Source: a virus
Length of the DNA stretch: 64,000 bases
Reading direction: 5' to 3' (one strand)
Virus record (IMG/VR): IMGVR_UViG_3300036715_001578
Coordinates: 49,080-113,079 of that record
Position numbers and translations under genes: made by a program. The notes below the pieces were generated by a model. It had not been told where the DNA came from, ran no database searches, and saw only the letters and a program-made list of their open reading frames with translations. Below, one piece after another: positions 16,223 through 61,187 of the stretch (positions are counted from its first letter, which is position 1; each line of letters starts with the position of its first letter).

Positions 16223-16582
16223 TCATGCGTATGTCCTATGCAGCCAAGCGACAATGTCTGACATGGTCATATAGCCGCCATGGCTGTGGACTTCCCAGTT
16301 GACATACTCGTGGCCTTTAACATTATGATGAGAGCCCTCAGCGATGTAATAACCGATCACCTTATCAGCATGCGGCGTGTCCATCTCACTCGCTTCTTTC
16401 GTGCACGAGATAATGACGCACGGTATGTTTGTGTTGGTAGTCGTGAACTGGACTTTCGTGTCCCAGTCATCATCGACCAGCAGCTGTTGCATTTCAAGTG
16501 CCTGCTTACGCAAGTAGGAGGGCGAGTTTGGCTTAGGCACGACTTGCACCAGCACAGCTTCTAGCACGCGTTGAAGCTTCAT
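16223..16582 (-). CDS. FQQ-family small protein with capsid-targeting-like peptide
   Basis: A 119-residue protein. It begins MKLQRVLE|A, fitting a short targeting peptide cut after L-x-E-type sequence, and contains KQALEMQQLLVDDDWDTKV, the F-Q-Q-x-L core seen in some fourteen paralogs. The rest is beta-rich (CVIISCTKE, YEVNW-like strands). ATG overlaps the preceding stop (ATGA). It sits between a papain-like gene and gp14, so it is made late. Probably a head-packaged protein; function unknown. Confidence 0.65.
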   Translation of the reverse strand: MKLQRVLEAVLVQVVPKPNSPSYLRKQALEMQQLLVDDDWDTKVQFTTTNTNIPCVIISCTKEASEMDTPHADKVIGYYIAEGSHHNVKGHEYVNWEVHSHGGYMTMSDIVAWLHRTYA

Positions 16583-23698: not shown

Positions 23699-23842
23699 TT
23701 AAGGGATCCTACAAAAGTCTACATGTAGAATCTTAAACCAAAAGAGACTCAAATGTAAACCAGCACAGTATGCCAGTTGCTTATTACAAAATTACCAAGT
23801 TGATGAGGCGCAATGCACCTCAGGTCCAGGAGTCACGCATGA

Positions 23843-23866
23843 AAAAGCCGCCCGAAGGCGGCTTTT
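23843..23866. terminator. Bidirectional terminator after the sheath gene
   Basis: AAAAGCCGCC, loop CGAA, GGCGGCTTTT: a symmetrical hairpin with T-runs in both directions. It ends the sheath transcript on the minus strand. Confidence 0.8.
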
Positions 23867-23884
23867 GAAGAGGCGTTTATGCCT

Positions 23885-25456
23885 TTAGATCGAAGTACCC
23901 GTTGCAACAACCCGGATTGGGATGTAGATGAACTCGACCGACTTCGGCGGCTTGACGAGGATGTCAACCCACAGCTCGTTACGGTCAATGCGAGTCGGCG
24001 TGTTATTGCTGTCATCGCAGACTACCAGGTAATCATACAGGCCACGGCGGACCATGATGTCATTCAGGTAGTCATCGATCATCGTCTTGATCGAGTCGCG
24101 CGTGATGCGGTCATTCAGCTCAAACAGGTAAGCCATCGAGGCCTTGCGGATCTCGCGCTTCAGCTTTTGCAGCAGCAGCATGACGTTGACCCGGTCAAGC
24201 GCCGATGTCAGGCTGTAGGAGGTCTTCTGACCGAAGACCACGAAGCCACGACCCGGGAAGTACGGGATGATGTTGACGTTCTTCTGATACTCATAGAGTA
24301 CGTCGCGTTGGCCTTGGTTCAGCGGAGACTGAACGAAGGTTGTCGGCGTACCCAACGTGCCGGTGACGTAACCGACATTCGAGATACCAGTCAGCACGCC
24401 CCGGCGGAAGCCTGCAGGTGGGTACCAAACTTCAGCAACGTTCGCTGTGTAGGCGAAGGTCTTGAGCGCAGCGCCCGAAGCCGAAGCCAGCACGTCAACG
24501 CCGTCGAGGTTGGAGGCCAAGACGTGCGGGTAGTAGTACGCAACGTTCTGCGAGCGGAAGCGCGCCGAAGTCATTGACCACGTTGCCGTATCCTCTGGGC
24601 TCTTGTTCATCGGCGTGTCAGCGATGATGAACGCCTCTTCGTTGATGGACAGGTTCAGGTTCAACAGCTCGTCGATGACCTCTGGGTAGCCAGGGCACAG
24701 GATGATGTTGTACTCGTAGTAGTCCGAACGCACGTCAGAGTTCGTGTTGATCTCAGCGGCCAGAGCCGTGACAATCGTAACGCGCTTGGCAGCGTCATTG
24801 GCGCCCAGCGGGTTTGCGGCTGTCGAAGACGTGACTACGACCGTGAAGACATCGCCTGCCGAGAACGGAGTAGAACCCGCATTGATCGTGAAGGAGATGA
24901 TGCCGTTGTTGTAAGGCGTACCTACAATGGCTGTCGGTTGACCGCCTGACACAAAACCAGAGACCGAGAAGTTCGTCGAGCTGGTAGCCGTGACGGTCCA
25001 AGTTTCAGCGTGACCAGTTGTCTGGTTCACAGCGACCGAAGTCATTGCACCGTTACCCGCACCGGTGAAGGTTGGGGAGCCTGGGGTCAGAGTTACGACC
25101 GGTGCATCAGCCAGGTCAACGTCGGCGCGCACGACATAAGCGCGGTTGCCAACGGACAGATACTGGTTGAGCGCAAAGAGGCCGTACTCATTGCGAGCGT
25201 CACCGTGCAGCTGAGCGCCGGTGTTGTCCGCACGGAAGTATGGAACACCGTAGGTGTCCACAGACTGGTTCAGGGATGTGATGGTTCGAACGACGCTGGA
25301 TTCCTTGGCGCCAGGTGCATCCGTCGTACCGTCGGCCTTCTTCTTGTCCTCGCGCGTTGCGACGAAGAACAACGGCACGCAAGGCGCAGAAGCGGCGACG
25401 TAGAACGACTCGTCGATGATGGTAACGCTAACGCCTGGTGAGACGAGAGTTGGCAT
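23885..25456 (-). CDS. gp18: Tail sheath protein, T4 gp18
   Basis: A 523-residue protein. It begins SPGVSVTIIDESFY, and the C-terminal part (FGQKTSYSLTSALDRVNVML, ELWVDILVKPPKSVEFI) is the conserved core of myovirus sheath proteins, which contract to drive the tube through the envelope. Residues about 125-212 form an inserted beta domain (WTVTATSS...YNNGIISF...GDVFTVVV) shared with the gp13-like protein and gp6. A leader with AGGAGA separates ATG 25456 from the late motif. Confidence 0.9.
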   Translation of the reverse strand: MPTLVSPGVSVTIIDESFYVAASAPCVPLFFVATREDKKKADGTTDAPGAKESSVVRTITSLNQSVDTYGVPYFRADNTGAQLHGDARNEYGLFALNQYLSVGNRAYVVRADVDLADAPVVTLTPGSPTFTGAGNGAMTSVAVNQTTGHAETWTVTATSSTNFSVSGFVSGGQPTAIVGTPYNNGIISFTINAGSTPFSAGDVFTVVVTSSTAANPLGANDAAKRVTIVTALAAEINTNSDVRSDYYEYNIILCPGYPEVIDELLNLNLSINEEAFIIADTPMNKSPEDTATWSMTSARFRSQNVAYYYPHVLASNLDGVDVLASASGAALKTFAYTANVAEVWYPPAGFRRGVLTGISNVGYVTGTLGTPTTFVQSPLNQGQRDVLYEYQKNVNIIPYFPGRGFVVFGQKTSYSLTSALDRVNVMLLLQKLKREIRKASMAYLFELNDRITRDSIKTMIDDYLNDIMVRRGLYDYLVVCDDSNNTPTRIDRNELWVDILVKPPKSVEFIYIPIRVVATGTSI

Positions 25457-25489
25457 GGTAGGGTGTCTCCTGTCAATTTCTTAGACTGT

Positions 25490-25496
25490 GTATTTA
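25490..25496 (-). promoter_or_regulatory. Late promoter motif TAAATAC for the sheath gene
   Basis: Minus-strand TAAATAC with a leader of about 30 bases holding AGGAGA. A second TAAATAG at 25557-25563 may be an extra promoter or chance overlap with the plus-strand -35 box. Confidence 0.65.
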
Positions 25497-25559
25497 TGAC
25501 GAGATAGCCAGGGAGATGCCTCTTCCGAAGTTTTCCTCACATAGGATGTCTCGTGCCTA

Positions 25560-25588
25560 TTTACAAGGAGCTATATCAAGTGTATAAT
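25560..25588 (+). promoter_or_regulatory. Sigma70-like promoter TTTACA-17-TATAAT
   Basis: A near-consensus host promoter (25560-25565 and 25583-25588) for the plus-strand cluster 25626-27617. Confidence 0.75.
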
Positions 25589-25625
25589 CAAATCAATCGT
25601 TCAACAGATACTTAAGGAGAGCATC

Positions 25626-25874
25626 ATGGCAGACATTGGCGCAACGATCACGTATCGTCATTGCAATGACACCTCCGCCAAGCCTGTTCGGTTTCGCTAG
25701 TTCAAGCACGACCCGGTTCCCGCTTGGGCAGCCGACGTGCAGGACGAAGTGATCATCGAGCCTGTTGAGCCTGAAAAGCGCCTTGCTACTACAACCACTA
25801 TGAAGCATCTGCTTGGCAAGGCGGTTGGGCCGCTGGGTACGAAGCAGGCTGCCTTGGCTGCAACAAATGCTTGA
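25626..25874 (+). pseudogene. Small early gene interrupted by in-frame amber stop
   Basis: An AAGGAG site precedes ATG 25626. The frame reads MADIGATITYRHCNDT...RFR, meets TAG at 25698-25700 and continues for 58 more codons in the same frame (FKHDPVPAWAADVQDE...) to a TGA that leads directly into the next gene's ribosome site. Other genes here end with TAG, so reassignment of amber is unlikely; a nonsense mutation or suppression is more likely. Confidence 0.55.
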
Positions 25875-25884
25875 GGAGAGCAAC

Positions 25885-26033
25885 ATGGAGCTGAAGATCG
25901 AAGCGTTGGATTCATCAACGAAGTCGGAGAGCCTGTGCTGTGGGATTCCAAGGCTCCGCTGGAACGCGCTCGTGCCATCCGCATCGCAAAAGAATGCGGC
26001 CTGCAACTGCTGTTTGTCGAGGTGACAAAATGA
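25885..26033 (+). pseudogene. Small early gene with a frameshift
   Basis: GAGGAG precedes ATG 25885 (MELKIEA...). After about seven codons the sensible frame changes to GFINEVGEPVLWDSKAPLER...VEVTK, which ends at a TGA overlapping the next start (ATGA). The span is two over a multiple of three. Function unknown. Confidence 0.5.
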
Positions 26034-27274
26034 GCCTGCTGAAAGCAACCATCATTCCCGAGTGCGTGCCGCTGCTGGTGCTTGAGCTGGAGAAGCTCAA
26101 CAAGAAGGCGACAAAGCTGGGCTGCCAGCCGCTGGCTCACACGGTTTCCGACACCTACCTCCGCTCAAACCGCAACAACCAAGTTGACGAGGTCATTGAC
26201 ATCGAGGTGTTCGGCGAGCCGATCAAGCTCAATGGCTGGCGCTTCCTCGGCCGCATCGAAGCGGTTGAAGGCCAGGACAACCTGATCTTCGGGGTGCCCG
26301 GCGAGAACGCGCCTGACAGCTACCGCAAGAGCTCAGCCTACCTGTGCGAGCACTGCGGGCAGAACCGCAAGCGCAAGTTCACCTGGCTGCTGCAGCACGA
26401 TGACGGTGCTTACAAGCAGGTCGGCTCGAGCTGCATGGATGACTTCCTCAGCGCCAAGAGCCCCGAGAAGGCCGTTGCGTGGTGGATGTCCTCTCTGAAG
26501 GCCCTGTCTGACTACCTGAATGACCTGGCCAAGCGCGAGCCCACATATCACAACAGCCAACGGCATGACTACAAGCCGGTGACGCTGCTTGCGGCGCTCG
26601 CTGTCTCCTACGCTTGCCAGGTGGTGCGTGAGCGTGGCAAGTACGAGTTCTGCTCGGAAGATACCCGTGGCACGACCAATTATGTGTGGGAGCTGATGTT
26701 TAACGGCCAGGCCAAGTCAATCGATGACCAAGACCACGAGCTGGCAGACAAGATCATCGCCTATATCCTGGCTCGGCGCTACGACTCGGACTACTTCAAG
26801 AACCTCTCGATCATGCTGATCGCCAACGAGGTTGAAGCTCGCCACCTGAACTACGTCGTCTCGAGCGTCTACACCTACCACAAGGCTCATGGCTCGCTGC
26901 CTGGCAAGGCGAAGACACTCAACGAGTTCTACGGCGTTGTCGGTGACCGCGCTCGAGACCTGGAGCTGACCGTCACGCTCGTGCATCCGATCACCAGCAA
27001 TTACTACCATGACACCTATGACTATTTGGTGATCATGAGGGACATCGAAGGTCGGACCTTCAAGTGGAAGAAGACCTCGGCAGGTAACCTCCTACACAAG
27101 GAGGACAGCGTCAAGGTGACCGGCACGATCGTCGAGCACGACACGTACAAGGGCGTCAAGCAAACGGTGCTGTCCCGCTGCAAGGTTGAAGTTCTCGTGG
27201 AGACCGTATATGAGCACGCCCGACAACGCAGTGCAACGTGCGCTGAAGCTCCAGCAAGCGTTGGTCGAGTTTGA
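26030..27274 (+). CDS. Zinc-ribbon protein of unknown function
   Basis: A 414-residue protein with a likely zinc site: CEHCGQNRKRKFTWLL, then GSSCMDDFL. The rest is a mixed fold with YLVIMRDIEGRTFKWK and a C-terminal DSVKVTGTIVEHDTYKGVKQ that looks like an OB-type domain. Similar proteins occur in phages and plasmids without a known role. A host-type promoter drives it, so it is likely early. It overlaps the next gene by 65 bases, which is unusual and may mean that its original stop was lost by a base change near 27205. Confidence 0.6.
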   Translation: MSLLKATIIPECVPLLVLELEKLNKKATKLGCQPLAHTVSDTYLRSNRNNQVDEVIDIEVFGEPIKLNGWRFLGRIEAVEGQDNLIFGVPGENAPDSYRKSSAYLCEHCGQNRKRKFTWLLQHDDGAYKQVGSSCMDDFLSAKSPEKAVAWWMSSLKALSDYLNDLAKREPTYHNSQRHDYKPVTLLAALAVSYACQVVRERGKYEFCSEDTRGTTNYVWELMFNGQAKSIDDQDHELADKIIAYILARRYDSDYFKNLSIMLIANEVEARHLNYVVSSVYTYHKAHGSLPGKAKTLNEFYGVVGDRARDLELTVTLVHPITSNYYHDTYDYLVIMRDIEGRTFKWKKTSAGNLLHKEDSVKVTGTIVEHDTYKGVKQTVLSRCKVEVLVETVYEHARQRSATCAEAPASVGRV

Positions 27275-27617
27275 CGCTGACCTCGATATCAAGCTGGCCC
27301 GCAAGCATCACACGATCAAGCGCGAGCTGATCACCAATACAGGGACGGTCAAGCATGACGAAGAGACCGTAAAGCTTGTGATAGCGAGAAGCGAGCGCGA
27401 CTCAGCTGAAATCTACGTGGGCGCAGGGGCCGTGTACGGAGCCGGCGATGGTTGGTTTGGCATCTTTGACTCACCAATCATCAGCTTTGAGAAGCTGGTA
27501 CCGCTGATTGTAGGACAGCTACCCTTTGTCTTTGCGGAGCATGAGAAGCAGCGCAAGGCAATGGCCAGGATGCTGACTGGTAAGAAGCTCTCAGCCTGGA
27601 AATCAGCCTGGAAATGA
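27210..27617 (+). CDS. FQQ-family protein without targeting peptide
   Basis: A 135-residue protein with RALKLQQALVEFDADLDIKL near its start, the F-Q-Q-x-L domain core, then ERDSAEIYVGAG and FGIFDSPIISFEKL. Unlike many late paralogs it has no M-K-L-x-x-L-L-E leader and sits in an early-type cluster. This suggests the domain acts inside the infected cell and that the leader is a separate sorting element. Confidence 0.6.
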   Translation: MSTPDNAVQRALKLQQALVEFDADLDIKLARKHHTIKRELITNTGTVKHDEETVKLVIARSERDSAEIYVGAGAVYGAGDGWFGIFDSPIISFEKLVPLIVGQLPFVFAEHEKQRKAMARMLTGKKLSAWKSAWK

Positions 27618-29588: not shown

Positions 29589-29768
29589 TCACGGGATGTC
29601 CCAGCCGCCAAAGGTGACTTCGTCGCCGTTCAGGAAGTTACGGTCGCTAGGAGAAATGATCCGCACCGAGTGCACGGTCGTGCTAGGCACCTTGAGAGCC
29701 CCAATGGCCTCATCGCTCGATAGCAGAAGCTGTTGAACCTCAAGCAGGAAACGCTTATACGACAGCAT
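29589..29768 (-). CDS. Short FQQ-family protein
   Basis: A 59-residue protein, MLSYKRFLLEVQQLLLSSDE..., with the V-Q-Q-x-L core of the paralogous domain. It overlaps the end of the upstream gene by 14 bases. It could be a truncated copy. Confidence 0.5.
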   Translation of the reverse strand: MLSYKRFLLEVQQLLLSSDEAIGALKVPSTTVHSVRIISPSDRNFLNGDEVTFGGWDIP

Positions 29769-30138
29769 AGAACTTATCGAAGACCAGTTCGCTATAGGTA
29801 TTGGTGTTATCCAACGTGTCCCGAGCGCGGGCACGACGATAGACAATGTGGGTCACCGCAATGCCGATCGAGCTCATGTTCTCCTCAAACAGCTCTGACC
29901 CAATTGCTGCTGAGATCGGGCTGGGCAGCCTGGTCACACGTTCGCGGTTGCCGTCTCGGCCTATGCTAACAGTGATGGACTTTCCGATATGCCTAAAGTA
30001 CAAGCGGCCGAGGGCCGGGTCATGATAGATGAGGCAAGGCTCATCCTGTTCCCGTTTAAGCCTAGTCTTGCAATCATCGATGTTGTCGATGAGCGCAGCT
30101 TGCAGCTTGAGGAAGAATGGGATGCTAGCGTGCGCCAT
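29755..30138 (-). CDS. FQQ-like small protein
   Basis: A 127-residue protein with PFFLKLQAALIDNIDDCKTR near its start, similar in pattern to the F-Q-Q-x-L core, then beta strands (LYFRHIGKSITVSIG). No targeting peptide is visible. It is placed in tandem with a shorter relative. Confidence 0.5.
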   Translation of the reverse strand: MAHASIPFFLKLQAALIDNIDDCKTRLKREQDEPCLIYHDPALGRLYFRHIGKSITVSIGRDGNRERVTRLPSPISAAIGSELFEENMSSIGIAVTHIVYRRARARDTLDNTNTYSELVFDKFYAVV

Positions 30139-30584: not shown

Positions 30585-31940
30585 TTACAGGAACGTGAGG
30601 TTGTTGACGACGATCTTGCCGTAGTAGTCGGCCGAGTTCGCCAGGGAGGAAGCGCTCGAAGTGAACGTTGCCTTGCCGTAGCGGGTCATGACCGCGATTT
30701 GGTTGTTGTAGGTCTGTGGATCCACAACGGTGTTGCTGGTCATCAGCGGGATGTACGGGCAGTAGAAGTAACCTGCGTCCGTTTCGCCGTTGCCGCCCTT
30801 GTAGCCGATCAGAACGATCTGCGACGAAGCGCCTGCGCCACCTGGGACTGCCGAAGCAGCTGCCACAGTACCGAACGATGCATCGAACAGGAAGGAGTAA
30901 ACCTTGATCGCGCCGTTCAGTGTACCAACCAGCTTGGTGTTGTTCGGACCTTCGAACGAGCCAGAAACGGCAGGTGCGAAGACGGACTTTGCAGCGGACT
31001 GCAGCACCGACACGATTTGCGGGTTGACCACAGCGAAGTTCGCCATGCCGCGACGTGTCTTAGCGCCGATGTCGTTTGCCACCTTGTTGATCAGCACGCC
31101 GAGAACAGCGTGGCGGTCACCGATGTAGTGCGGGGTGCCCGTGAAGGAACCAGCCATATCGAACAGCTCAGTCGTACCAGCCAGACGGATCAGGTCGGTA
31201 ACGATTTCGTTATCGATTTCGTGCACGATTTCGGCAGACAGAGCCTGCGTGATCTCAGCTTCGAGGTCGAGACCGTGCTGCGAGGACAGGTCCTGCATAG
31301 CTTCGATCGACCACTTAGCTTGCAGCTTGCGGGTCTTGGCTTCAACAGCCTGACGCAGCACTTGGATGCCCATGGAACGGCCTGGGAAGGCTTCCATGTC
31401 GATGACATCGCCGGCGTTGCCAGACAGTGGGGAGCTAGACAGCGAGAACGCGCCAGCCGGTGTGAACGCGCCGCCGTTTGCAACGCCAGAAGCGTTGTAC
31501 AGGCCGCCCGAAGCACCAGGAGTCACGCCACCGGAGTAGAAGCGACGCATCTTGCCAGCGTACGGTGCCGAAGCAGACGTATTGCCGAAAGCTTCGTCAT
31601 CAACTGCGATGTCGCCAGCCGTGGTTTCAGCCGTGGTTGCTGCGTTCTTGTAAACGTAGCGCATGGAGAAGATCAGACCGGTTGGGCCAGTCAGCGGTTG
31701 AACGCCAACGATTTCGGTACCGATGGTGCCAGGGATGATCCGGCGGATCATAGGCATCATGATCTTCTGGAAGTTAGCGACGTTGCCGGTCGAAACGACG
31801 TCAGCGCCAGCAGTTTCCAGGAGGTACTTGCGCTGGTTTTCCAGCGCGAGGTCGACGATACGCGTCTTGGTCGGGTCAAGGTTTTCGAGCAGAGCGGACT
31901 TGGCTTCGCCCCAAACCTTTGCTTCTTTCAGAAATTGCAT
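30585..31940 (-). CDS. gp23: Major capsid protein, T4 gp23
   Basis: A 451-residue protein. The segment VANFQKIMMPMIRRIIPGT and GVQPLTGPTGLIFSMRYVY is diagnostic for gp23. It forms the hexamers of the head. In T4 the N-terminal part is removed by gp21; here RKYLLE|TAGADV (Glu42) lies at the matching place just before the conserved core and fits an L-x-E-type site. A second L-L-E is at residues 17-19. A GGAGA site precedes ATG 31940, and a terminator follows the gene. Confidence 0.95.
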   Translation of the reverse strand: MQFLKEAKVWGEAKSALLENLDPTKTRIVDLALENQRKYLLETAGADVVSTGNVANFQKIMMPMIRRIIPGTIGTEIVGVQPLTGPTGLIFSMRYVYKNAATTAETTAGDIAVDDEAFGNTSASAPYAGKMRRFYSGGVTPGASGGLYNASGVANGGAFTPAGAFSLSSSPLSGNAGDVIDMEAFPGRSMGIQVLRQAVEAKTRKLQAKWSIEAMQDLSSQHGLDLEAEITQALSAEIVHEIDNEIVTDLIRLAGTTELFDMAGSFTGTPHYIGDRHAVLGVLINKVANDIGAKTRRGMANFAVVNPQIVSVLQSAAKSVFAPAVSGSFEGPNNTKLVGTLNGAIKVYSFLFDASFGTVAAASAVPGGAGASSQIVLIGYKGGNGETDAGYFYCPYIPLMTSNTVVDPQTYNNQIAVMTRYGKATFTSSASSLANSADYYGKIVVNNLTFL

Positions 31941-33894: not shown

Positions 33895-34530
33895 TTACTT
33901 CCTGAGCTGTTGGCCAGTGAGCTTTTCGAAGAAGAAGGCGAGCTCCTTCGCGAAGTACTTCTGGGCGTCATTGCTGTGGACCATCGCTTCAGCGAGGGTC
34001 ATGATCTTCTTATTTTCTGTCAGCGCTTCCATGACATGGCCAGGGAATGCATTCGGTGCGGACGGAGTTGCAACTACGTCAACGGTTACTAGCGAGAAGC
34101 CTGACACGCGGCCTTCGACCACGTTACCCGAGCCGCGCGAGGAGACGCCCAGCTTGCCGCCAGCGTTCAAGATAGCCTTAACGATCTGACCCTTCGGGTG
34201 ACCTTCGATGATGCGTGCCTTGCCGATCGCGTTTGCGCCGTCCATCTTCATCTCGGTGATGATGTGCGACACGTTGTTGAGGTCGATCGTCAGGTTGTCG
34301 GGGTGGTTCAGCTCGCCGTAGACCGTCTGGCCTTCAGCGATACGCTGGTTGATCGAGTTCACCGAAGCGGCGATCTCCTCCAGCGGGTACACACGACCGT
34401 TGCCGTTGACGAGGTCAGCTTGCATGAAGATGCCGCTGAGGTAGGAGGACTTCGTAGAGTCATGCTCCTCGACAATCAGCCGTGCGTTCGACGGGTGGAT
34501 GCTTTCGATGAGAACGAGCTTGTCAGACAT
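33895..34530 (-). CDS. gp21: Prohead core protease, T4 gp21
   Basis: A 211-residue protein with TVYGELNHPDNLTIDL (catalytic His) and KLGVSSRGSGNV (catalytic Ser), the core of the gp21/U9 family of herpes-assemblin-like proteases. In T4 this enzyme cuts capsid, scaffold and internal proteins after L/I-x-E. Its presence here supports the reading of the many L-L-E N-termini as substrates. The late motif at 34556-34562 drives it, with AAGGGA before ATG 34530. Confidence 0.92.
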   Translation of the reverse strand: MSDKLVLIESIHPSNARLIVEEHDSTKSSYLSGIFMQADLVNGNGRVYPLEEIAASVNSINQRIAEGQTVYGELNHPDNLTIDLNNVSHIITEMKMDGANAIGKARIIEGHPKGQIVKAILNAGGKLGVSSRGSGNVVEGRVSGFSLVTVDVVATPSAPNAFPGHVMEALTENKKIMTLAEAMVHSNDAQKYFAKELAFFFEKLTGQQLRK

Positions 34531-34584: not shown

Positions 34585-34605
34585 CTAATCCGTGAAGAGC
34601 TTCAT
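34585..34605 (-). pseudogene. Vestige of a further targeting-peptide gene
   Basis: An ATG overlapping the upstream stop reads M-K-L-F-T-D and then TAG. The position and first three residues match the start of the M-K-L proteins upstream, so this may be the stub of a deleted paralog. Weak because it is so short. Confidence 0.3.
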
Positions 34606-35108
34606 CCTTCCCACTCTTCGACCCACACCATGGTGTCTTCAAGTGAGGTAAAGCTAGCTGTTCGGTCACCTGACTTATCAGCATGATTAGCTATCCACTC
34701 ACCGTCATACTCAAACTCAAAGCGTACTTCAAATGTCGATGGGTGGATGCGCTTCTCAGCGATTAGCAAAATCGTCCCGTCGCCGTCATTGATGATGAAG
34801 CTGTATTTGTAGCCTTTTAAGCTTTTAACCAACTCATGCTTCAGGTCAAGTAGGGCAGCCACTGATAGCAAGGCCGCTTCGGGATGGTCAGCAAAGTCAA
34901 CCTCGTAGACGAGCTTAGGCTGAGCTGAGGTGATAGTACGGCTCTCAAAGTTGAATGTTACTTTGACGTCGCCCTTTTTCATTGTCAATGCACCCTTTGA
35001 CAAGCTAATCTCCCAGCTGTCATCATGCAAGTCATCCACAACAGCTTGTTGAACAGTGAGCATATCCTTCGAGGTAACGGTTTGCTCAAGCAGGTTAGTC
35101 AGCTTCAT
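34602..35108 (-). CDS. FQQ-family protein with capsid-targeting-like peptide
   Basis: 168 residues, starting MKLTNLLE|Q, then MLTVQQAVVDDLHDDSWEIS, the family core. Beta-rich middle (FNFESRTITSAQPKLVYEV) and an acidic C-terminus (VWVEEWEG). Lies between the portal and prohead protease genes, overlapping its upstream neighbour by ATGA. Likely packaged in the prohead; function unknown. Confidence 0.65.
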   Translation of the reverse strand: MKLTNLLEQTVTSKDMLTVQQAVVDDLHDDSWEISLSKGALTMKKGDVKVTFNFESRTITSAQPKLVYEVDFADHPEAALLSVAALLDLKHELVKSLKGYKYSFIINDGDGTILLIAEKRIHPSTFEVRFEFEYDGEWIANHADKSGDRTASFTSLEDTMVWVEEWEG

Positions 35109-35677
35109 ACTATCTTCTCGAGCTTCTTGACCATGTCATCATAGCCCTCAAAGTCATGGCCTTGGAGAAACTTATTTTGAGGCATCTTATCAAATGGCAA
35201 CAGCATGTAATTCATATGCACGTTCTTATAGCTGTCATAACCAAGCATCACGATGATCGGAGGCTCGCTGCCGTGTGCTTCATGATGGAAGTTCTCCATC
35301 TTCGAGCCAGCTGAATACAGTGTCACGTTATGCCTTGCGCACAGCTCAGCTTTCTCATCATTTGTGAGCTGCTTAAAGCCATGCGCGAGCAGCCACGCCT
35401 TCATCTTAGGAATAGCCATTCGCTCATTGATGATCTCGACTACACCGTGAATGAACAGCGGATGGTTAATGCTGCATTTCTGAGCGTAAAATCTGACATG
35501 CTCCGGGTCCTTCATGTCGAGCTTCATCGGCTGCTTCAGGGAAGGGTGTCGAATTAGGATCTTGTCGCTGCTAACCTGCACGTTGAAGTCATCATCAAGC
35601 TGATCAACCAACTCTTGCTGGAACTTCAAGAGCTGTTGCCGGGGGACAGCTCCTTCGAGCAGGTTAGATAGCTTCAT
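35105..35677 (-). CDS. FQQ-family protein with capsid-targeting-like peptide
   Basis: 190 residues. The start MKLSNLLE|G is nearly identical to that of the next gene. The core LLKFQQELVDQLDDDFNVQV is the clearest copy of the F-Q-Q-x-L domain. Further parts: FYAQKCSINHPLFIHGVVEI and PPIIVMLGYDSYKNVHMNYM. Overlaps the portal stop (ATGA), so it is made with head proteins. Likely an internal head protein; role unknown. Confidence 0.7.
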   Translation of the reverse strand: MKLSNLLEGAVPRQQLLKFQQELVDQLDDDFNVQVSSDKILIRHPSLKQPMKLDMKDPEHVRFYAQKCSINHPLFIHGVVEIINERMAIPKMKAWLLAHGFKQLTNDEKAELCARHNVTLYSAGSKMENFHHEAHGSEPPIIVMLGYDSYKNVHMNYMLLPFDKMPQNKFLQGHDFEGYDDMVKKLEKIV

Positions 35678-49779: not shown

Positions 49780-50879
49780 GCTGTTGCGTCCTTGTCTGTT
49801 GTTTCGATCTTGAGGCTCTTGTAGATCTCAAGCAACAGCTTGAGGTCATACTTGCCTTTGGCGGCACCGTCATCAATGGCGGCTTCAAGCTGGGAGGTCA
49901 CGAGCTCGTCAACACTGTCAAACTTGAGGTCATGCACTTCGGTCACCTTGGATGAGTCGCCTTCGACCAAGCCTTGCTTTGCCTCTCGGTCCTCTTCGAG
50001 GACCAAGTCGCGCAGGTTGTGGGCCTCGATCAACGCTTCGCGGAGCTCTTGCGCCTCTGTGTAGCTGATGTCGATGTCCACCACGCACTTGACGCGCGTC
50101 TTTGCTTTCGGGGACCACTTGTTGGCGATCACGTCACCCAGCTTGACCTTCAAGTACTTTGGGCAGTCTTCCCAGTCCTTGAATTCAACTTTGTCGGCGG
50201 CTACATCATAAACTGCCATGCCACGAGCGTCATCGCCTGCATCACCGAAATTAGTCGGAAATGTGTTACCGATGTAGCAAATATTGTCGATGACTTGTCG
50301 TTTATGGAAGTGGCCTGAGAAGATCTTTTTCGGTTTACTAACGAGCCGCCTGTCCTGACCGCGCTCCATGATTGTGCTATGACCAGTCAACACAAAATCA
50401 TTGAACTCAAAATGACCGTAGACGGTTTCATGCGCATTGATAATATCAGCAAGCGCGAGAAATTCATGGTCAAACAGATACGGCAAGAATAGCTGTTTGC
50501 CATTTAGGCTAATAGCATCTTCGACAATGGTGACATTTCTAACCGAGCTGAATACGCTGAGCGAGTGGATGTCACGAGTCGTGCGTCGGTAAAGATCATG
50601 GTTCCCGGTGATGAACATGATCGGGATTCCAAGTTTATCTAACTTTTGCAAGCCTTCAGCGGACATCGACAGCGTTTGCACATTGATCGCTGAACGATTT
50701 TCAAACCAGTCACCTAGAAATGCGATGTGAGAAATATCACTTGGGAGTGATTTGATAAACCAATCGACATAGTCTAGGTTATCCTGGTTATGTTGAACCG
50801 AATTTGAACGTACGCCCCAGTGAATGTCCGTGAACATTGCAATCTTGGTCGCGTCAGGTCCACTGATTTTCTGAAGCAT
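49776..50879 (-). CDS. gp47: Recombination endonuclease subunit, T4 gp47 (Mre11/SbcD-like)
   Basis: 367 residues with the metallophosphoesterase motifs MFTDIHWGVR, IAFLGDWFENR, ITGNHDLYRR and SGHFHKRQ. It is the nuclease partner of gp46. The start at 50879 is 15 bases from the divergent GIY-YIG gene. Confidence 0.93.
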   Translation of the reverse strand: MLQKISGPDATKIAMFTDIHWGVRSNSVQHNQDNLDYVDWFIKSLPSDISHIAFLGDWFENRSAINVQTLSMSAEGLQKLDKLGIPIMFITGNHDLYRRTTRDIHSLSVFSSVRNVTIVEDAISLNGKQLFLPYLFDHEFLALADIINAHETVYGHFEFNDFVLTGHSTIMERGQDRRLVSKPKKIFSGHFHKRQVIDNICYIGNTFPTNFGDAGDDARGMAVYDVAADKVEFKDWEDCPKYLKVKLGDVIANKWSPKAKTRVKCVVDIDISYTEAQELREALIEAHNLRDLVLEEDREAKQGLVEGDSSKVTEVHDLKFDSVDELVTSQLEAAIDDGAAKGKYDLKLLLEIYKSLKIETTDKDATA

Positions 50880-50894
50880 GAGAATATATTGCTT

Positions 50895-51686
50895 ATGGAT
50901 AACTACTATGTCTACGTCTATCTTGACCCGCGCAAGCCTATCAGCGATGATCCTAACGGCTTAACACATGAGCCGTTTTACGTAGGTAAAGGTGTACGGC
51001 GACGAATGTATGATCACATGACAGAGTTAGAATGGTATTTGACTGAACCTTCAATGGCTGAATGCAAGGCAAGACGCTCAAATCTTATCAAGCTAAACAA
51101 GCTACGAAAGCTTCATGTGTTAGGTCTTAGGCCTATCATAGTGCAACTACATACCAAGCTTGCAAGTTTAGCCGCAGAGGAGAAAGAGGTAGAACTGATA
51201 GCATTTTACCGTCGTTCTATTGATGGTGGCATTTTATCAAACCTAACACCAGGTGGCGCTGGCCGACGAGATGTGCTTTCAGCTGGTCCGTTCAACTCGT
51301 TCTATGGGAAAACTCACTCGGACGAGTTCAGAGTAAAAATGTCAAAGTTGCATAAAGGCAAAGTCATTTCTCAAGCTCAACGCGACGCAATTAGCTTAGC
51401 TGTAAAAGGTAAACCGAAGCCTCATCACATGAAAGAAGCATTGCGTGCAACGCTTGTTCGCCGGAATCTAGATGATCCATTACATCCATCCGTTGAAGCA
51501 AAACGACTCGCCCGCTCAAAGCTTTGGGAAGTAACCTCGCCTAATGGAGAGGTTACCATCGTGCGTTCGCTAAGACGTTTCTGCGAAGAACAAGGTCTGC
51601 CTGTTAAAACCTTGATGTCTGCGAAAAACCGCGGAGAACCTGTAGCCAGCGGACCTGCTTTAGGTTGGCGTGTTAGGCTGCTTTAG
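50895..51686 (+). CDS. GIY-YIG homing endonuclease
   Basis: 263 residues: YYVYVYLDPR ... EPFYVGKGVRRRMYDHM is the GIY-YIG core, followed by helices and NUMOD3-like DNA-binding repeats (KTHSDEFRVKMSKLHKGK, AQRDAISLAVKGKPKP) and a C-terminal helix-turn-helix-like part. AT-richer than its neighbours, opposite in strand and lying between gp47 and gp55, it looks like an inserted mobile gene. ATG 50895 begins the family core; an earlier ATG is within gp47. Confidence 0.85.
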   Translation: MDNYYVYVYLDPRKPISDDPNGLTHEPFYVGKGVRRRMYDHMTELEWYLTEPSMAECKARRSNLIKLNKLRKLHVLGLRPIIVQLHTKLASLAAEEKEVELIAFYRRSIDGGILSNLTPGGAGRRDVLSAGPFNSFYGKTHSDEFRVKMSKLHKGKVISQAQRDAISLAVKGKPKPHHMKEALRATLVRRNLDDPLHPSVEAKRLARSKLWEVTSPNGEVTIVRSLRRFCEEQGLPVKTLMSAKNRGEPVASGPALGWRVRLL

Positions 51687-52254
51687 GTTCATCATCATCA
51701 AATGTTAGCAGGCTAACTGCAGGTGATTCAGCCGCCATGGCTTCGAGGGCCTTCTCGTCCGCAATCTTCTGCTCGTCGGCAGCGCGGCGGATCTTAGCCT
51801 CGGCGATCTCAGCGCTCAGCTCTTGCAGCTCGTTCCTGACCTCAGAGCCTTCGCCTGAGTTCTGACGGTACTCCTCTTGGAAGTTGAAGGACGGGTTCTC
51901 ACCGATCTCTACCAGCATGGCGTCACGGATGCGACGGTGCTTCTTCTCATTGTTGAGGTAGCCGAGGAACGAGTTGTGGATGCATTGGGTGTAGAACGCA
52001 AACGGGTTGGATGAGCGTTCAGGCTTAAACTTCAGCGCATTCTTGCAGAGGTCGGCGAGCGCCTCAGCGATCATGTCATCGATGTACGTGTAGCCTGAGA
52101 AGTTCGGCTTCGATGCGTAACGTGTGGTTAGCATGTGGAGCATCGAAGCGAGCTTATTGCTCATCTTGCCCACCTCCTTGCACTTAATGACCTCAACGAG
52201 AAGGTCGGCATTCTTAAGGTAAAAGACTTTACCTTCGGTGGGCTGTGTTGCCAT
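51673..52254 (-). CDS. gp55: Late-transcription sigma factor, T4 gp55
   Basis: 193 residues. SGYTYIDDMIAEALADLCKN, NPFAFYTQCIHNSFLGYLNN and EKKHRRIRDAML match T4 gp55, the small sigma factor that directs RNA polymerase to TATAAATA-type late promoters. It fits the many TAAATA motifs of this window. The Ala/Glu-rich C-terminal tail is longer than the core needs and may bind the sliding clamp, as in T4. Overlaps the 3' end of the GIY-YIG gene by 14 bases. Confidence 0.9.
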   Translation of the reverse strand: MATQPTEGKVFYLKNADLLVEVIKCKEVGKMSNKLASMLHMLTTRYASKPNFSGYTYIDDMIAEALADLCKNALKFKPERSSNPFAFYTQCIHNSFLGYLNNEKKHRRIRDAMLVEIGENPSFNFQEEYRQNSGEGSEVRNELQELSAEIAEAKIRRAADEQKIADEKALEAMAAESPAVSLLTFDDDEPKAA

Positions 52255-52377: not shown

Positions 52378-52743
52378 ATGCGTATTTATGCCCTCTTGGA
52401 ACAGCCTCTCGCGCTCAGGCAGACAGCGCTTCGCTTTCAACAGCTGCTCGTTGAAGCGTTGCCGCACCGCGACTTGAAGCTAAGGCCGAGGGCGCGGTAC
52501 CTGCCTGTCCCAGGCGGGTCGATCATCAAGGCATACATGATTTGGGTTGAGTCTCAAGCACCGCACGTTGACGAAGGCTATGTCCCAGGAATCTACGTCG
52601 CTGAATACACGTCAGGTGAAATCGATGTCAAGGATGGACATTGCATGCTAGCTTGCAGACAATTCGACAACGAAGCTAAGTTCATCGACTACGTGATCAA
52701 GGACTGTGAGCTGGCGCGCCCTGTAAAGCGAGACGGAAAATGA
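52378..52743 (+). CDS. FQQ-family protein with capsid-targeting-like peptide
   Basis: 121 residues: MRIYALLE|Q, then LRFQQLLVEALPHRDLKLRP and a beta-rich body (GIYVAEYTSGEIDVKDG, FIDYVIKD). First gene after the late promoter; overlaps the next by four bases. Proposed head-packaged protein. Confidence 0.65.
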   Translation: MRIYALLEQPLALRQTALRFQQLLVEALPHRDLKLRPRARYLPVPGGSIIKAYMIWVESQAPHVDEGYVPGIYVAEYTSGEIDVKDGHCMLACRQFDNEAKFIDYVIKDCELARPVKRDGK

Positions 52744-53090
52744 AGTTGACGGCTCTCTTTGAATCATCACTCGACTTAATGCTGAGGCGGTGGGTGCTAC
52801 GCTGCCAGCAAGCATTAATTGAACACGGTGACATTGCAACCCGCATCTCACCTGTGACCGCGGGGCGTAATCCAGCCTTTGTTAAGCAGCTAACGCTGAT
52901 TGACAAAGCTACCGTTGACGCTGTCATGAGCACCGCTTTGTACAATAGTGTCACATATGCAATTAGAGCAGATTCGGTGTACATCATGTCACCGTTCAAG
53001 CAGTTTTTGCAAGCCCCCGACGATACTATCTTAGATGATGCTTTTACAAAAACGATGGGCGAAGTAATAGATCGGTTTAACAAGCAATGA
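52740..53090 (+). CDS. FQQ-family protein with capsid-targeting-like peptide
   Basis: 116 residues: MKLTALFE|S, then WVLRCQQALIEHGDIATRIS. The rest is helical and strand-rich without a known motif. Coupled to both neighbours by four-base overlaps. Confidence 0.65.
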   Translation: MKLTALFESSLDLMLRRWVLRCQQALIEHGDIATRISPVTAGRNPAFVKQLTLIDKATVDAVMSTALYNSVTYAIRADSVYIMSPFKQFLQAPDDTILDDAFTKTMGEVIDRFNKQ

Positions 53091-53779
53091 AGCTCTCAGT
53101 CCTCCTCGAAGAGCGCAAGCTCTTAGCCGTCATCTACGGCGGCCGGTTCCAGCCTTTCCACAAGGGTCACTACTCGGTCTACCGTGAGCTGTGCAAGCAG
53201 TTCGGCGAAGGTGCCGTGTGGATCGCGACCTCCAACAAGACCAACTTTGACCCAGGCAACGGTGACATCTCGCCGTTCACCTTTGAGGAGCGGGTCGAGA
53301 TCATGGTTCAGCTGTTCGGCATCTCGCCTGAGAAGATCATCGAGTGCAAGAACCCTGCTTTCGCTCCGAAGGAGGTGCTTGAGCTCTACAAGGCTCCTAC
53401 TGTGATGGTCATGGTAGCCGGCGATAAGGACGTAGAGCGCTATGAGTCGTCAAAGTTCTTCGAGCAGTACCCGACCAAGTCAGGCAAGCCGGTGCCCTTT
53501 GCGCATGCAGCCGCCGGCTTGAAGACCGGCGAGTCCGATCCTCCAGGCGCCTACTATGTGATCAGCAATGCTCGAGACGGTAACCAGTCCGGCACGACTA
53601 TCCGTGAAGCTTTCCAGCGCGCCGGCGAGGACGAAGCCAAGCAGGTTGCAGCCTTTAAGAAGTTCTACGGACCTAAGGTCAATGATGACATCCTCGACCT
53701 GCTGGTTAGCAAGATCAAGATGATCAAGCCGCCGCCTGAAGAGTCGGCGAAGCAGAAGGTTGAGAAGGACGCGGCATGA
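53087..53779 (+). CDS. Nucleotidyltransferase (NMN/cytidylyltransferase-like) with targeting-like peptide
   Basis: 230 residues. After MKLSVLLE|ERK comes VIYGGRFQPFHKGHYSVYRE, the GxFxPxHxGH signature of the nucleotidyltransferase alpha/beta phosphodiesterase superfamily, including NMN and pantetheine adenylyltransferases; the second motif is NQSGTTIREAF. It could make NAD or activate another nucleotide-linked substrate. The leader suggests that it is packaged, as T4 packages the enzyme Alt. Substrate is not readable from sequence. Confidence 0.75.
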   Translation: MKLSVLLEERKLLAVIYGGRFQPFHKGHYSVYRELCKQFGEGAVWIATSNKTNFDPGNGDISPFTFEERVEIMVQLFGISPEKIIECKNPAFAPKEVLELYKAPTVMVMVAGDKDVERYESSKFFEQYPTKSGKPVPFAHAAAGLKTGESDPPGAYYVISNARDGNQSGTTIREAFQRAGEDEAKQVAAFKKFYGPKVNDDILDLLVSKIKMIKPPPEESAKQKVEKDAA

Positions 53780-57586: not shown

Positions 57587-59094
57587 AAGAGATCAACCAC
57601 GGCGCCTCAGGCATTCCGGGCTACGGCAAGCAGTACGGCATGACCTTAGGCATTGTCAAGAATAACGCTGACCCTGCTCAGCAAGGACGGCTGCAAATTT
57701 ACGTGCCCGCCTATGACGCAAACAGCTTTAATGTCGCTGACTTGCCTTGGGCTACATACGTGTCGCCGTTCGGCGGCGTGACAGCCAACTTTGCTGTGGG
57801 GCCAGAGGGGGAGACCCTACCAGGCATCTCAGCCTACGGCTTCTGGGCGATCCCGAAGAACAGCGCCCAGGTGCTGGTCGGTTGCATTGACGGCAACCCT
57901 GACAACCGGTTTTGGGTCGGTTGCGTCTACATTCCTGAGCACAACCGGACCTTGCCTGCAGGCATTGACGGCGTTACGTCTGAGATTGACGAATCGGGTG
58001 TCTACCCGCAAAAGGACTTCCCGCACGCGCAAGAGAAGCTTCAGAAGGCAGGCTTGTGGAAGGGGTCAACCCACTTCAAAACGCGAGGCGGCTATGAGCG
58101 ATCTGTCAGCCACCCATCTAACAAGAACAACAACAAGCCTACGGACAACGGCTATGCGCCTAAGCCTCTCGAGCCAGCTAAAGCTGACTCACAGGCCGTC
58201 TCGCTAACCTCGCCTGGCCGGCACATGTTCGTGATGTCGGACGTAGATGAGCATTGCCGTATCAGGCTGAAAACCACTAACGGCTCTCAAATCATCCTCG
58301 ACGACACTAATGAGCGGATCTACATCTCGACGGCTGAAGGTAAGAACTACATCGAGCTCGACGAAGGTAACGGCAAGATCTACGTCTACTCCGACTCGAA
58401 GGTCAGCATTCGAGCCAAGAATGACCTCAACTTGTACTCCGACGAGAACATCAACATCGTCGCGAACAAGCGCGTCCACATCAAGAGCGAGGAGCGCTCG
58501 GTTCACGTGACCGCCAAGTGCGATGTGACATTAAAGTCTACAAACGCCGACGTGTTGATCGCTGCAAGCCGTGACCTCAAGCTAAAGACCTTCAACGGCC
58601 CTCAAGCGGGCGCTCTCGGAGCTGAGACTGTCCAGACAAGCAACCCGCTCGACGTGATCTATCGTTGGCCTGAGAAGGGCGGGTCGGGTACGAGCAACAT
58701 CGAGCTTGATTCAGCCGGCAAGGTCCAGTCGGTGAGCCAGCAAGGCACGTTGCTAACGGTGCGCGGCAGCGAGGGCTTCAACGTCAAGTCTTCGGGTTCC
58801 GTCAACTTGCAGGGCCCAAGTGTCAACCTGGCGTTCCCGAGCGTCAACTGGCAAAGCGGTGCGAGCATGAACCTCAAGGACACCGACAATAACTCTACCA
58901 TCGTGGTTACAGGCGGTGCGAGCTCGTCCAGCGCTTACAGCGGTCATAAAGTCCTCTCTGTGCCGTACATGGGCGAGATGCCTCAGCAGGGCAAAGCAGG
59001 CGGCATGGTCAAGCCTGAGCATGAGTCATGGGTGCGTGATGAGGACTCAGCCTTTGCTAAGAACGAGCCTCGCAATTTTAAATACATTGGATGA
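57583..59094 (+). CDS. gp5: Baseplate central spike, T4 gp5-like without lysozyme domain
   Basis: 503 residues. An N-terminal OB-fold-like part (YGMTLGIVKNNADPAQQGRL, DNRFWVGCVYIPEHN) is followed by a beta-helix spike with short repeats (IYISTAEGKN, IYVYSDSKVSIRAKNDLNLY, INIVANKRVHIKSEE), as in gp5/VgrG. T4 gp5 has a lysozyme domain between these parts; here only a linker (about 145-195) occurs. The lytic domain appears instead in the tape measure protein. Confidence 0.85.
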   Translation: MKEINHGASGIPGYGKQYGMTLGIVKNNADPAQQGRLQIYVPAYDANSFNVADLPWATYVSPFGGVTANFAVGPEGETLPGISAYGFWAIPKNSAQVLVGCIDGNPDNRFWVGCVYIPEHNRTLPAGIDGVTSEIDESGVYPQKDFPHAQEKLQKAGLWKGSTHFKTRGGYERSVSHPSNKNNNKPTDNGYAPKPLEPAKADSQAVSLTSPGRHMFVMSDVDEHCRIRLKTTNGSQIILDDTNERIYISTAEGKNYIELDEGNGKIYVYSDSKVSIRAKNDLNLYSDENINIVANKRVHIKSEERSVHVTAKCDVTLKSTNADVLIAASRDLKLKTFNGPQAGALGAETVQTSNPLDVIYRWPEKGGSGTSNIELDSAGKVQSVSQQGTLLTVRGSEGFNVKSSGSVNLQGPSVNLAFPSVNWQSGASMNLKDTDNNSTIVVTGGASSSSAYSGHKVLSVPYMGEMPQQGKAGGMVKPEHESWVRDEDSAFAKNEPRNFKYIG

Positions 59095-59381
59095 AGCTCG
59101 TAGCCATCTTTGAAGATGAACGCCGTACCTTCGTGCTGAAATTTCAGCAGGAGCTGATTGACCTTGGGTGGGAGGTTGATGTCAAGCACCTAGGTGGCAA
59201 CAAGTTCAAGCTCTCTGTGAGCAGGGATGAGCGGGCTCCTATGCTGCTATACGCCTTCAAGTACAACGAGCGAGAATGCATCGTTAGAAACGTCATCGAT
59301 GACCGTACTCGAAGCTTCCACTCGGTCTATTTTTACAGCGGCCAAGAGTTTGCTGACTACGCACATGGGCATAACTTATGA
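59091..59381 (+). CDS. FQQ-family protein with capsid-targeting-like peptide
   Basis: 96 residues: MKLVAIFE|D, then FVLKFQQELIDLGWEVDVKH and strands (KFKLSVSRDE, CIVRNVIDDR). A compact, complete example of leader plus single domain. Lies between gp5 and gp25 with four-base overlaps. Confidence 0.68.
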   Translation: MKLVAIFEDERRTFVLKFQQELIDLGWEVDVKHLGGNKFKLSVSRDERAPMLLYAFKYNERECIVRNVIDDRTRSFHSVYFYSGQEFADYAHGHNL

Positions 59382-59755
59382 GCCAGTACAAGTTCTACCG
59401 TGGGTTCAGCACCAAAGGCTACGAGAATGTCGGCAAAGGCTTCACCCTCTACAACGTCGAGCTGATCCAAGAGGACCTCTTCAACGAGTTGTTCACCGTC
59501 AAGGGTGAGCGAATCATGCAGCCTGACTTCGGCACGCGCATCCCGTTACTGGTCTTCGAGCCGAACGACACCGTCACCGCGGACATCTTGAAGGAGGACG
59601 TGCTGAAGGTCATCAACGGTGACCCCCGCGTGCGGCTGCAAGAGTGCGACATCATCTCGGACATGGACAACCACCGGCTTATCTGCGTGGCTAAGATCCA
59701 ATACATCGAGTTCAATGTCACTAAGGACTTGAGGATCGAGGTGGGTTCGCGATGA
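59378..59755 (+). CDS. gp25: Baseplate wedge protein, T4 gp25
   Basis: 125 residues. ELFTVKGERIMQPDFGTRIP, LLVFEPNDT and the final strand are the gp25 signature (lysozyme-like fold, core of all contractile baseplates). It links wedge and sheath. Confidence 0.9.
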   Translation: MSQYKFYRGFSTKGYENVGKGFTLYNVELIQEDLFNELFTVKGERIMQPDFGTRIPLLVFEPNDTVTADILKEDVLKVINGDPRVRLQECDIISDMDNHRLICVAKIQYIEFNVTKDLRIEVGSR

Positions 59756-60420
59756 AGCTGCAGTCACTGCTTGAAGAAACTGATCGGTCAGCCATCCTAA
59801 AGGCTCAGCAAGAACTCGTCGAGCTCTTGCCTGAGAGTGACATTCGAATCGTCAAGATTGACCCAACGCAAGGCTATTGGAAAGAGGTCAACGATAAGGA
59901 TGTAGGTCAGCCGCTGTCTAACATGGCCTTATGCATCGACAACAAGATAACCGTCGCGATGTTTTATTGGGACACGAATGCGGCTAGCGGCCGTGGATTT
60001 TGCAATGACGTAAATGAGTTTATGACGATGCAGCCATTGGCTAACTGGGTGGAGCAGCAACAAGAGCTTAAAGAGAGCGCCCGGTCAGAAGCGCTAGAAT
60101 TTCAACAGTACCTCATTGATGAGGACTACGAGACAAAGCTTCAAGCGTCAAAGTGGGTGATGCGGCACAACTACGGGCCAACCGTCATTAAGCATCAAGA
60201 GACTGATGTTGAGGGCGGTATCCTGTTGCTCGCAAGAAAAGAGTCGGACAACCATTGGACGACTGCTTACCATTTCCCAGACGATATGAGCATGGGCGTT
60301 GCCATGTATGTCGATGATCCAGGCAACAAGCACAAGAAAGTGGCCGGGCATACCAACTTTATCCACAGCGTCACGCTGAAGCCAGGAACAAATCTTAAGC
60401 GTTGGGCGATGCCAGCATGA
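59752..60420 (+). CDS. Double FQQ-domain protein with capsid-targeting-like peptide
   Basis: 222 residues: MKLQSLLE|E; first core ILKAQQELVELLPESDIRIV; second core ALEFQQYLIDEDYETKLQAS at about residue 117. The protein thus has two copies of the domain in tandem. Coupled to gp25 and the next gene by four-base overlaps. Confidence 0.68.
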   Translation: MKLQSLLEETDRSAILKAQQELVELLPESDIRIVKIDPTQGYWKEVNDKDVGQPLSNMALCIDNKITVAMFYWDTNAASGRGFCNDVNEFMTMQPLANWVEQQQELKESARSEALEFQQYLIDEDYETKLQASKWVMRHNYGPTVIKHQETDVEGGILLLARKESDNHWTTAYHFPDDMSMGVAMYVDDPGNKHKKVAGHTNFIHSVTLKPGTNLKRWAMPA

Positions 60421-61187
60421 AGCTACTTGAACTGCTCGATACAGGCCCTAGCGCCCATACAACCCTGTCTCGCTTCGCTAAGGAGCTCGAGGCAAAGGGC
60501 TTCGAGGCCGAAGTCAAGTCCAGCTCAAAACCCGGAATTATAAACCGCTCGAAGCTTTGCATCGTGGTCAAGGGCTATGGGCTCAGGGACGTGATCAAGC
60601 TCTACAAGCCGCTGTTTGGCTGGGAGGACACGAGCACCTACTTCGTTGACTCGAAGCATGAGAAGAAGTTCCGGACCGTGCAGGAGCTTGTGGCTGTGCT
60701 GAAGGACAAGTACAAGCGCTTGCCTAAGTGCCTCTCCTACGTGCCGCCCGTGGTCAAGGAGGATGAAGGTGTCGTGCCAATAAAGCGGCGCATCTTGAAG
60801 TTTCAGCAGGACCTCGAGAACCTTGACTACGAGACTGTCAGCAACATCATCAAGACCAAAGGTGTTTCCGCAGACGGCGCAACAACAGACAGGTTTGTGT
60901 TTGTCCTTGCGCCTGTGGATGATGGTCATCGGTTCTCTACCCTCTACCAGAAAGTCGTCATCATCATTGATGACCAGGACTCGTTGATGGTTCCCGGTCG
61001 TCAACCTCGCTCCAAGGTCGAGCAGCTTGTTAACGTAGAGATCTTCCACTGGGGCGAGACGTATGAGGAGCTGCTTAAGCGTGACTGGACGAAGCACTAC
61101 CCTAAGCGCCCAATCTTCATCGAAGATGAAGCCGTGACTGGCAGGCAAGAGTCGCTTGACAACGCAATTGCCTACCTGACTAAATAA
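60417..61187 (+). CDS. Double FQQ-domain protein with targeting-like peptide ending LLD
   Basis: 256 residues: MKLLELLD|T, a diverged first core (LSRFAKELEAKGFEAEV) and a second core ILKFQQDLENLDYETVSN at about 128. The stop codon is part of the late motif of gp6. ATG 60417 overlaps the preceding stop; an upstream ATG five codons earlier is less likely. Confidence 0.65.
   Translation: MKLLELLDTGPSAHTTLSRFAKELEAKGFEAEVKSSSKPGIINRSKLCIVVKGYGLRDVIKLYKPLFGWEDTSTYFVDSKHEKKFRTVQELVAVLKDKYKRLPKCLSYVPPVVKEDEGVVPIKRRILKFQQDLENLDYETVSNIIKTKGVSADGATTDRFVFVLAPVDDGHRFSTLYQKVVIIIDDQDSLMVPGRQPRSKVEQLVNVEIFHWGETYEELLKRDWTKHYPKRPIFIEDEAVTGRQESLDNAIAYLTK
61181..61187 (+). promoter_or_regulatory. Late promoter motif TAAATAA for gp6
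   Basis: TAAATAA, five bases, ATG (61193). It contains the TAA stop of the gene before. Confidence 0.6.

Follow-up and report, generated by a model that had tools for sequence, protein, structure and literature searches.

Among the closest described systems are those of phage T4 and of cyanophages. The role of the capsid-targeting sequence (CTS) of T4 has been described, with propeptides of 10-19 residues (PMC9026906). For cyanophages, the accessible text of three proteome reports lists an NMNAT-like protein in the virions of S-CREM2 (cytidylyltransferase ORF154, 3 peptides; PMC10665884), S-SCSM1 (NMNAT ORF91; PMC9602691) and S-SZBM1 (cytidylyltransferase 140, 2 peptides; PMC9146016), and the NMNAT of S-CBWM1 is cited as virion-detected as well (PMC9602691). 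The authors warn there that such an enzyme could be carried over as a contaminant when virions are purified (PMC10665884, PMC9602691), and the peptide counts of 3 and 2 are low. In the accessible text of this virion work, no link between the NMNAT-like proteins and a targeting leader was found, and a literature search combining capsid targeting sequence and cyanophage found only the T4 review. CTS cargo in T4 and NMNAT-like virion proteins in cyanophages are already known; new here are the joining of NMNAT-like virion enzymes to gp21-type leaders, which recur in several leader 'dialects', and a ligase-like fusion.

The leader and its genomic setting

The window analysed here is a stretch of 64,000 nucleotides, positions 49080-113079 of a 113,079-base IMG/VR virus record. 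The record holds a T4-type myovirus gene set, with portal, gp21-like head protease, T4-type major capsid protein, tail sheath and head-tail adaptor. Within the window, a nucleotidyltransferase (NTase) is encoded close to the genes for a baseplate wedge protein and a late sigma factor. Its ORF shares 4 bases with the end of the ORF upstream and 4 with the beginning of the ORF downstream. The features are as follows, in window coordinates.

30585-31940, minus strand: major capsid protein, T4 gp23-like, with two LLE sites in its pro-region
33895-34530, minus strand: gp21-type head maturation protease (phrog_207, E 3.3e-60)
34602-35108, minus strand: leader-bearing ORF (MKLTNLLE) between portal and head protease
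35105-35677, minus strand: leader-bearing ORF (MKLSNLLE) between portal and head protease
51673-52254, minus strand: late sigma factor, gp55-like
52378-52743, plus strand: leader-bearing paralogue upstream of the NTase (MRIYALLE, LRFQQLLVE), overlapping the next ORF by 4 bases
52740-53090, plus strand: leader-bearing ORF upstream of the NTase (MKLTALFE), overlapping the NTase start by 4 bases
53087-53779, plus strand: NTase, 230 aa, ATG start
53087-53110, plus strand: leader MKLSVLLE, a predicted head-targeting propeptide with a predicted cut after Glu8, based on its recurrence and the LxE rule
53111-53779, plus strand: predicted mature NMNAT-fold NTase from Glu9, stop included, with GRFQPFHKGH and SGTTIR motifs
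59091-59381, plus strand: leader-bearing ORF (MKLVAIFE)
59752-60420, plus strand: leader-bearing ORF (MKLQSLLE)
60417-61187, plus strand: leader-bearing ORF (MKLLELLD)
2401-2562, 16223-16582, 27210-27617, 29755-30138, 34602-35677, 52378-52743, 59091-59381 and 59752-60420: paralogues with an LKFQQELVD-like motif

Pfam identified the NTase as CTP_transf_like (E 6.6e-9, above cut-off), and it matched two PHROGs families, both cytidyltransferases. An initial annotation of this DNA had described an NTase with an N-terminal leader, and this is real: the protein is an NMNAT-fold NTase and its leader, MKLSVLLE, recurs in the record. The same annotation had the active-site motif directly following the leader. 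The order is correct but the direct contact is not, as the N-terminus reads MKLSVLLE, ERKLLAVIYG, GRFQPFHKGH, with 10 residues (the first beta strand) in between. In the AlphaFold model (mean pLDDT 71.7), residues 1-10 fall below pLDDT 50, which fits the expectation for a detachable tag.

The pattern M-x-h-x-x-h-h-(E/D/Q) stands at the start of 14 of the 158 ORFs in the 113-kb record, where internal positions of these proteins predict 0.2; one of the 14 was counted as doubtful, since its start is internal, 25 residues into the ORF. When leucines at equivalent leader positions were compared, the codon was identical in only 29% of cases. Since the codons mostly differ, it is the leader peptide that is conserved and not a copied DNA stretch, and an artefact of copied DNA was ruled out. 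An artefact of the upstream paralogues was also ruled out, because the relative in locus L004 keeps its leader where no such paralogues are present.

Like T4 CTS cargo (IPI-III, Alt), the NTase carries a short leader ending in hydrophobic-x-Glu which is found on several unrelated proteins, in a genome with a gp21-type protease (33895-34530). The predicted propeptide ends in (L/I)xE both here (MKLSV-LLE) and in L004 (MKISTLLE). Unlike T4 CTS cargo, the window leader has 8 residues and another sequence, the cargo is an NTase instead of an ADP-ribosyltransferase (ART) or a small basic protein, and its packaging is predicted. Leaders in relatives and cyanophages have 9-16 residues. With 8 residues, outside the 10-19 of T4, the window leader was therefore filed as CTS-like and not as a T4 CTS. 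The position near baseplate genes is also reported for the T4 alt family in the accessible text of PMC5512222.

The genes for portal and head protease flank two leader-bearing ORFs, MKLSNLLE and MKLTNLLE, which are candidate head-core proteins judged by this position only. T4 has gp67 and gp68 in that interval. Small paralogues with an N-terminal LKFQQELVD-like motif are dispersed over the genome, with further copies in L082, L083 and L084; the MKLxxLLE leader is present in some and absent in others, and they are possibly internal head proteins. A 596-aa protein (L083:4269-6059, record 24269-26059) starts with MTFKTFLSEALILEG, a T4-CTS-like N-terminus unlike the MKLxxLLE dialect. The late promoter TATAAATA has 0 matches in the window against 0.24 expected, so late expression is unsupported by that motif. 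The GIY-YIG/NUMOD ORF at 50820-51686 looks like a homing endonuclease and is no part of the NTase system. Outside the NTase cluster, an Acb1 anti-CBASS protein and a SpoVR-like protein are among the Pfam matches of the 68 ORFs of this record that were scanned.

Leader dialects in relatives and in cyanophage virions

A scan of viral contigs with the NTase found 556 encoding places, of which the best 80 were kept. The L004 relative, 73% identical, has a closely similar leader. Among these best 80 of 556, relatives of 35-40% identity have quite different leaders, e.g. MGNLIKEWVKSVLTE, MNELSQYLVNQILLE and MSDLSKFLVESILLGE, nearly all of which end in (L/I)xE. In 24 of 30 phage NTases an (L/I/M)xE site has its last residue at one of positions 7-21, versus 22.6% of 740 other ORFs from the same loci; the corresponding binomial figure of 4e-11 overstates the case, owing to the relatedness of the sequences and to a rule fixed with some of them already known. 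With the rule as used, the site is absent in 4 of 22 metagenomic NTases and in HTVC008M. Of 17 records with the NTase, 15 also encode the phrog_207 head protease, whose neighbouring genes have leaders in the style of the NTase leader of the same phage. Archaeal NadM starts close to GRF without a comparable leader, and two metabolic phage NadM-Nudix enzymes likewise have none.

The virion-detected cyanophage proteins begin with MKNFSSFLTE (S-CREM2), MKSFLQFLKE (S-SCSM1) and MRFRQFIIE (S-SZBM1), each followed by A. These leaders are T4-style, and all three phages have a T4-type head. Like the window NTase, the proteins belong to the NMNAT superfamily and have a leader ending in (L/I)xE; the sequence of the S-CBWM1 NMNAT has no leader. 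In S-CREM2, 4 of the 5 non-structural ORFs with a leader were found in virions, compared with 22 of the other 188 (Fisher p = 0.0012, with a leader regular expression chosen after some leaders had been seen). The SAM hydrolase, kinase and gp13 of this phage, all virion-detected, have the same leader type as its NTase. This type, MKxFxxFLxE, is found on the virion-detected SAM hydrolase, kinase and small proteins in L207 (S-CREM2 gp6, gp12, gp13 and gp14) and L208 (gp136), and a Cas9-like protein of the same S-CREM2 set (L207/L208) has RFASFMAE near residue 18.

In IMG/VR loci, all cyanophage-type NTases with a readable N-terminus bear a leader (47/47). The cytidyltransferase start of Synechococcus phage S-T4 is apparently annotated too late, as an in-frame MKNFLAFITEASGAAAQAKA leader lies upstream (L184, upstream of 2336). 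The cyanophage NTases are remote relatives only of the window NTase (hhalign, 67 columns); unlike it, they have GRYNPP or GRFNPP instead of GRFQPFH, and a long linker after the leader. As query in the viral scans, the S-CREM2 NTase gave 1 locus and ORF 35108-35677 gave 2 loci, numbers too small to be of use. The NTase gene adjoins the late sigma gene in the window phage, in L004 and in S-CREM2.

The catalytic domain and its acceptor

HxGH and SGTxxR are conserved throughout the NTase family, which makes AMP transfer from ATP likely. Like archaeal NadM (TIGR01527) and phage NadM-Nudix enzymes, the window NTase has GRFQPFHKGH, (S/N)PFTxxER and SGTxxR and, in its model, the same fold, and the NadM nucleotide-binding motifs GRFQPFHxGH and SGTxxR are both present. 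By these sequence matches, its ATP half appears NadM-like. Unlike those enzymes, it lies far below the NadM cut-offs, has neither the conserved Trp nor a Nudix domain, and carries an extra leader and an insertion. The curated NadM models gave 25.6 and 30.4 bits in the N-terminal third only (about residues 9-80), with cut-offs of 181.2 for TIGR01527 and 127 for NF002243. The Trp of the NxxW region, which contacts nicotinamide in NadM, is present in 15 of 15 aligned archaeal NadM and in 0 of 6 phage rows shown, where the A1 consensus is PxEIL. In a fold comparison with the model of mean pLDDT 71.7, PPAT, NadD and NadM were tied (Z 9.6-10.5).

In 16 relatives among the matches listed, a C-terminal domain of ~360-400 aa with invariant KxDG, NxE and EGxVF..KLTG motifs lies behind the NTase, at a distance that differs from one to another. 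At ligase motifs I (KxDG), III (Glu), IV (EGxVF) and V (lysine), the residues K42, D44, G45, E126, E369, G370 and K381 are invariant, also in Mel-JY01. The 11 best Foldseek matches of the domain model are RNA ligases, all weak (E 0.095-0.6); VIA-align reached Z 6.4 at most, its top rows including unrelated folds, and a PDB sequence search with the domain returned chance matches only. An intein-like sequence in L018:947-2518 starts right after the motif I lysine (EK, then CIAGDS...), a position that hints at the importance of the ligase-like active site. In Microcystis phage Mel-JY01 (L085:5929-7848), a full fusion of NTase and ligase-like domain with a leader-like MGKLINILLSE lies upstream of the large terminase gene. 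Such multidomain relatives, of several hundred to 2,000 aa and in many loci located just upstream of terminase genes, resemble the polyvalent proteins of PMC5512222. Unlike these, the window NTase is single-domain and stands alone, and NMNAT-fold enzymes are not among the domains named in the accessible text of that paper.

Since the NTase of relatives is joined to a domain resembling RNA ligases, an acceptor unrelated to NAD has to be taken seriously as a rival to NAD-related chemistry. An acceptor other than NMN or nicotinate mononucleotide is somewhat favoured, and either of these two mononucleotides is plausible at a slightly lower level. One version, which could well apply without being the leading expectation, is that the packaged NTase adenylylates a nucleic-acid end or another phosphorylated molecule together with a ligase-like partner, for repair or modification on entry. 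It concerns the substrate only and is compatible with packaging. The 16 fusions with their invariant ligase motifs, the weak RNA ligase matches at the top Foldseek ranks, the missing NadM Trp and the RNA ligase gene of the window phage itself (phrog_548) all point this way. Against it, the window NTase is unfused, searches of its record turned up no ligase-like domain (the second search having no positive control), and the fold fails to separate NadM, NadD and PPAT.

The NAD-related chemistry suggested by the initial annotation is only partly supported: the ATP-binding half is NadM-like, but the scores below the NadM cut-offs, the absent Trp and the fusion of relatives to a ligase-like domain speak against it. 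The additional idea that the NTase counters NAD depletion defences is speculation, kept alive by a NUDIX/NADAR pair and a weak leader-bearing ADP-ribosyltransferase candidate. The NUDIX gene overlaps the NADAR-domain gene (E 7.6e-23; L082:1853-2726, record 1853-2726), and the pair suggests ADP-ribose-related chemistry in the window phage. The candidate is a 157-aa ORF (L083:3799-4272, record 23799-24272) with the leader MKLSQIIE, then LYHQTRKENVESILANGF, and a faint PARP match (E 0.049); it is possibly a leader-tagged ADP-ribosyltransferase, an Alt-like NAD user. For this ART candidate (P0005) there was no informative PDB match, and its sole viral relative is identical. PADLOC gave no match for the NTase, and no NAMPT or NAPRTase was found in the record.

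Probable head packaging and other possible roles for the leader

Packaging of the NTase in the head with cleavage after Glu8 is the best explanation, and by analogy a fairly probable one. MKLSVLLE would be this phage's version of the T4 capsid-targeting sequence, docking the NTase in the prohead core, and the gp21-type protease would cut the leader off after Glu8. The mature adenylyltransferase, starting at Glu9, would stay inside the head and enter the cell with the DNA, and would probably move AMP from ATP to a phosphate-bearing acceptor by means of HxGH and SGTxxR. Head packaging is preferred because of the recurrent leader, the LxE sites on homologues and the leaders on virion-detected cyanophage homologues; packaging, cleavage and injection in the window phage are steps that we infer by analogy with S-CREM2, S-SCSM1 and S-SZBM1. 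The head-targeting role proposed in the initial annotation is, as far as inference goes, well supported by the gp21-type protease, the leader ORFs of the head module, the LxE homologues and the virion-detected cyanophage homologues.

The leader might instead be a shared N-terminal docking peptide of the small paralogues with another role, such as tail or baseplate assembly or other docking, which the NTase has borrowed. Many leader ORFs indeed have LKFQQELVD as a second motif, and they are scattered over the genome, some beside baseplate genes. The NTase, however, carries the leader but lacks this motif, and several paralogues that have the motif lack the leader. A pair of leader ORFs is located in the interval from portal to head protease, NTases in other phages have leaders that differ but again end in LxE, and virion-detected S-CREM2 cargo bears leaders of this kind, so that a borrowed docking peptide is rather unlikely. 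An ordinary auxiliary metabolic NMNAT, boosting NAD synthesis inside the infected cell and never packaged, is unlikely. It would account for the NadM-type GRFQPFHKGH motif and the Pfam match, leaderless phage NadM-Nudix genes beside NAMPT do exist, and NUDIX and NADAR genes occur in the same record. It does not agree with the leader and the structural-gene neighbourhood, with NadM scores that reach only 25-30 bits where the cut-offs are 127-181, with the loss of a Trp present in all 15 archaeal NadM compared, or with a record in which no NAPRTase-family gene was found.

Head packaging with leader cleavage might extend beyond this phage. As a tentative and rather doubtful generalization, several lineages of T4-type phages may share a general cargo class of head-packaged NMNAT-fold adenylyltransferases with phage-specific, protease-cleaved leaders, many of them joined to an RNA-ligase-like domain and using a non-NMN acceptor, in an unrecognised nucleotide-transfer reaction from DNA entry onwards. 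According to the accessible text of the cyanophage reports, NMNAT-like enzymes recur in virion proteomes with contamination not excluded by the authors, and a cleavable leader offers a mechanism for their presence. If this reading of the leader is true, the virion cargo of T4-type phages could be predicted from their sequences, and with it any injected enzymes at work ahead of phage gene expression.
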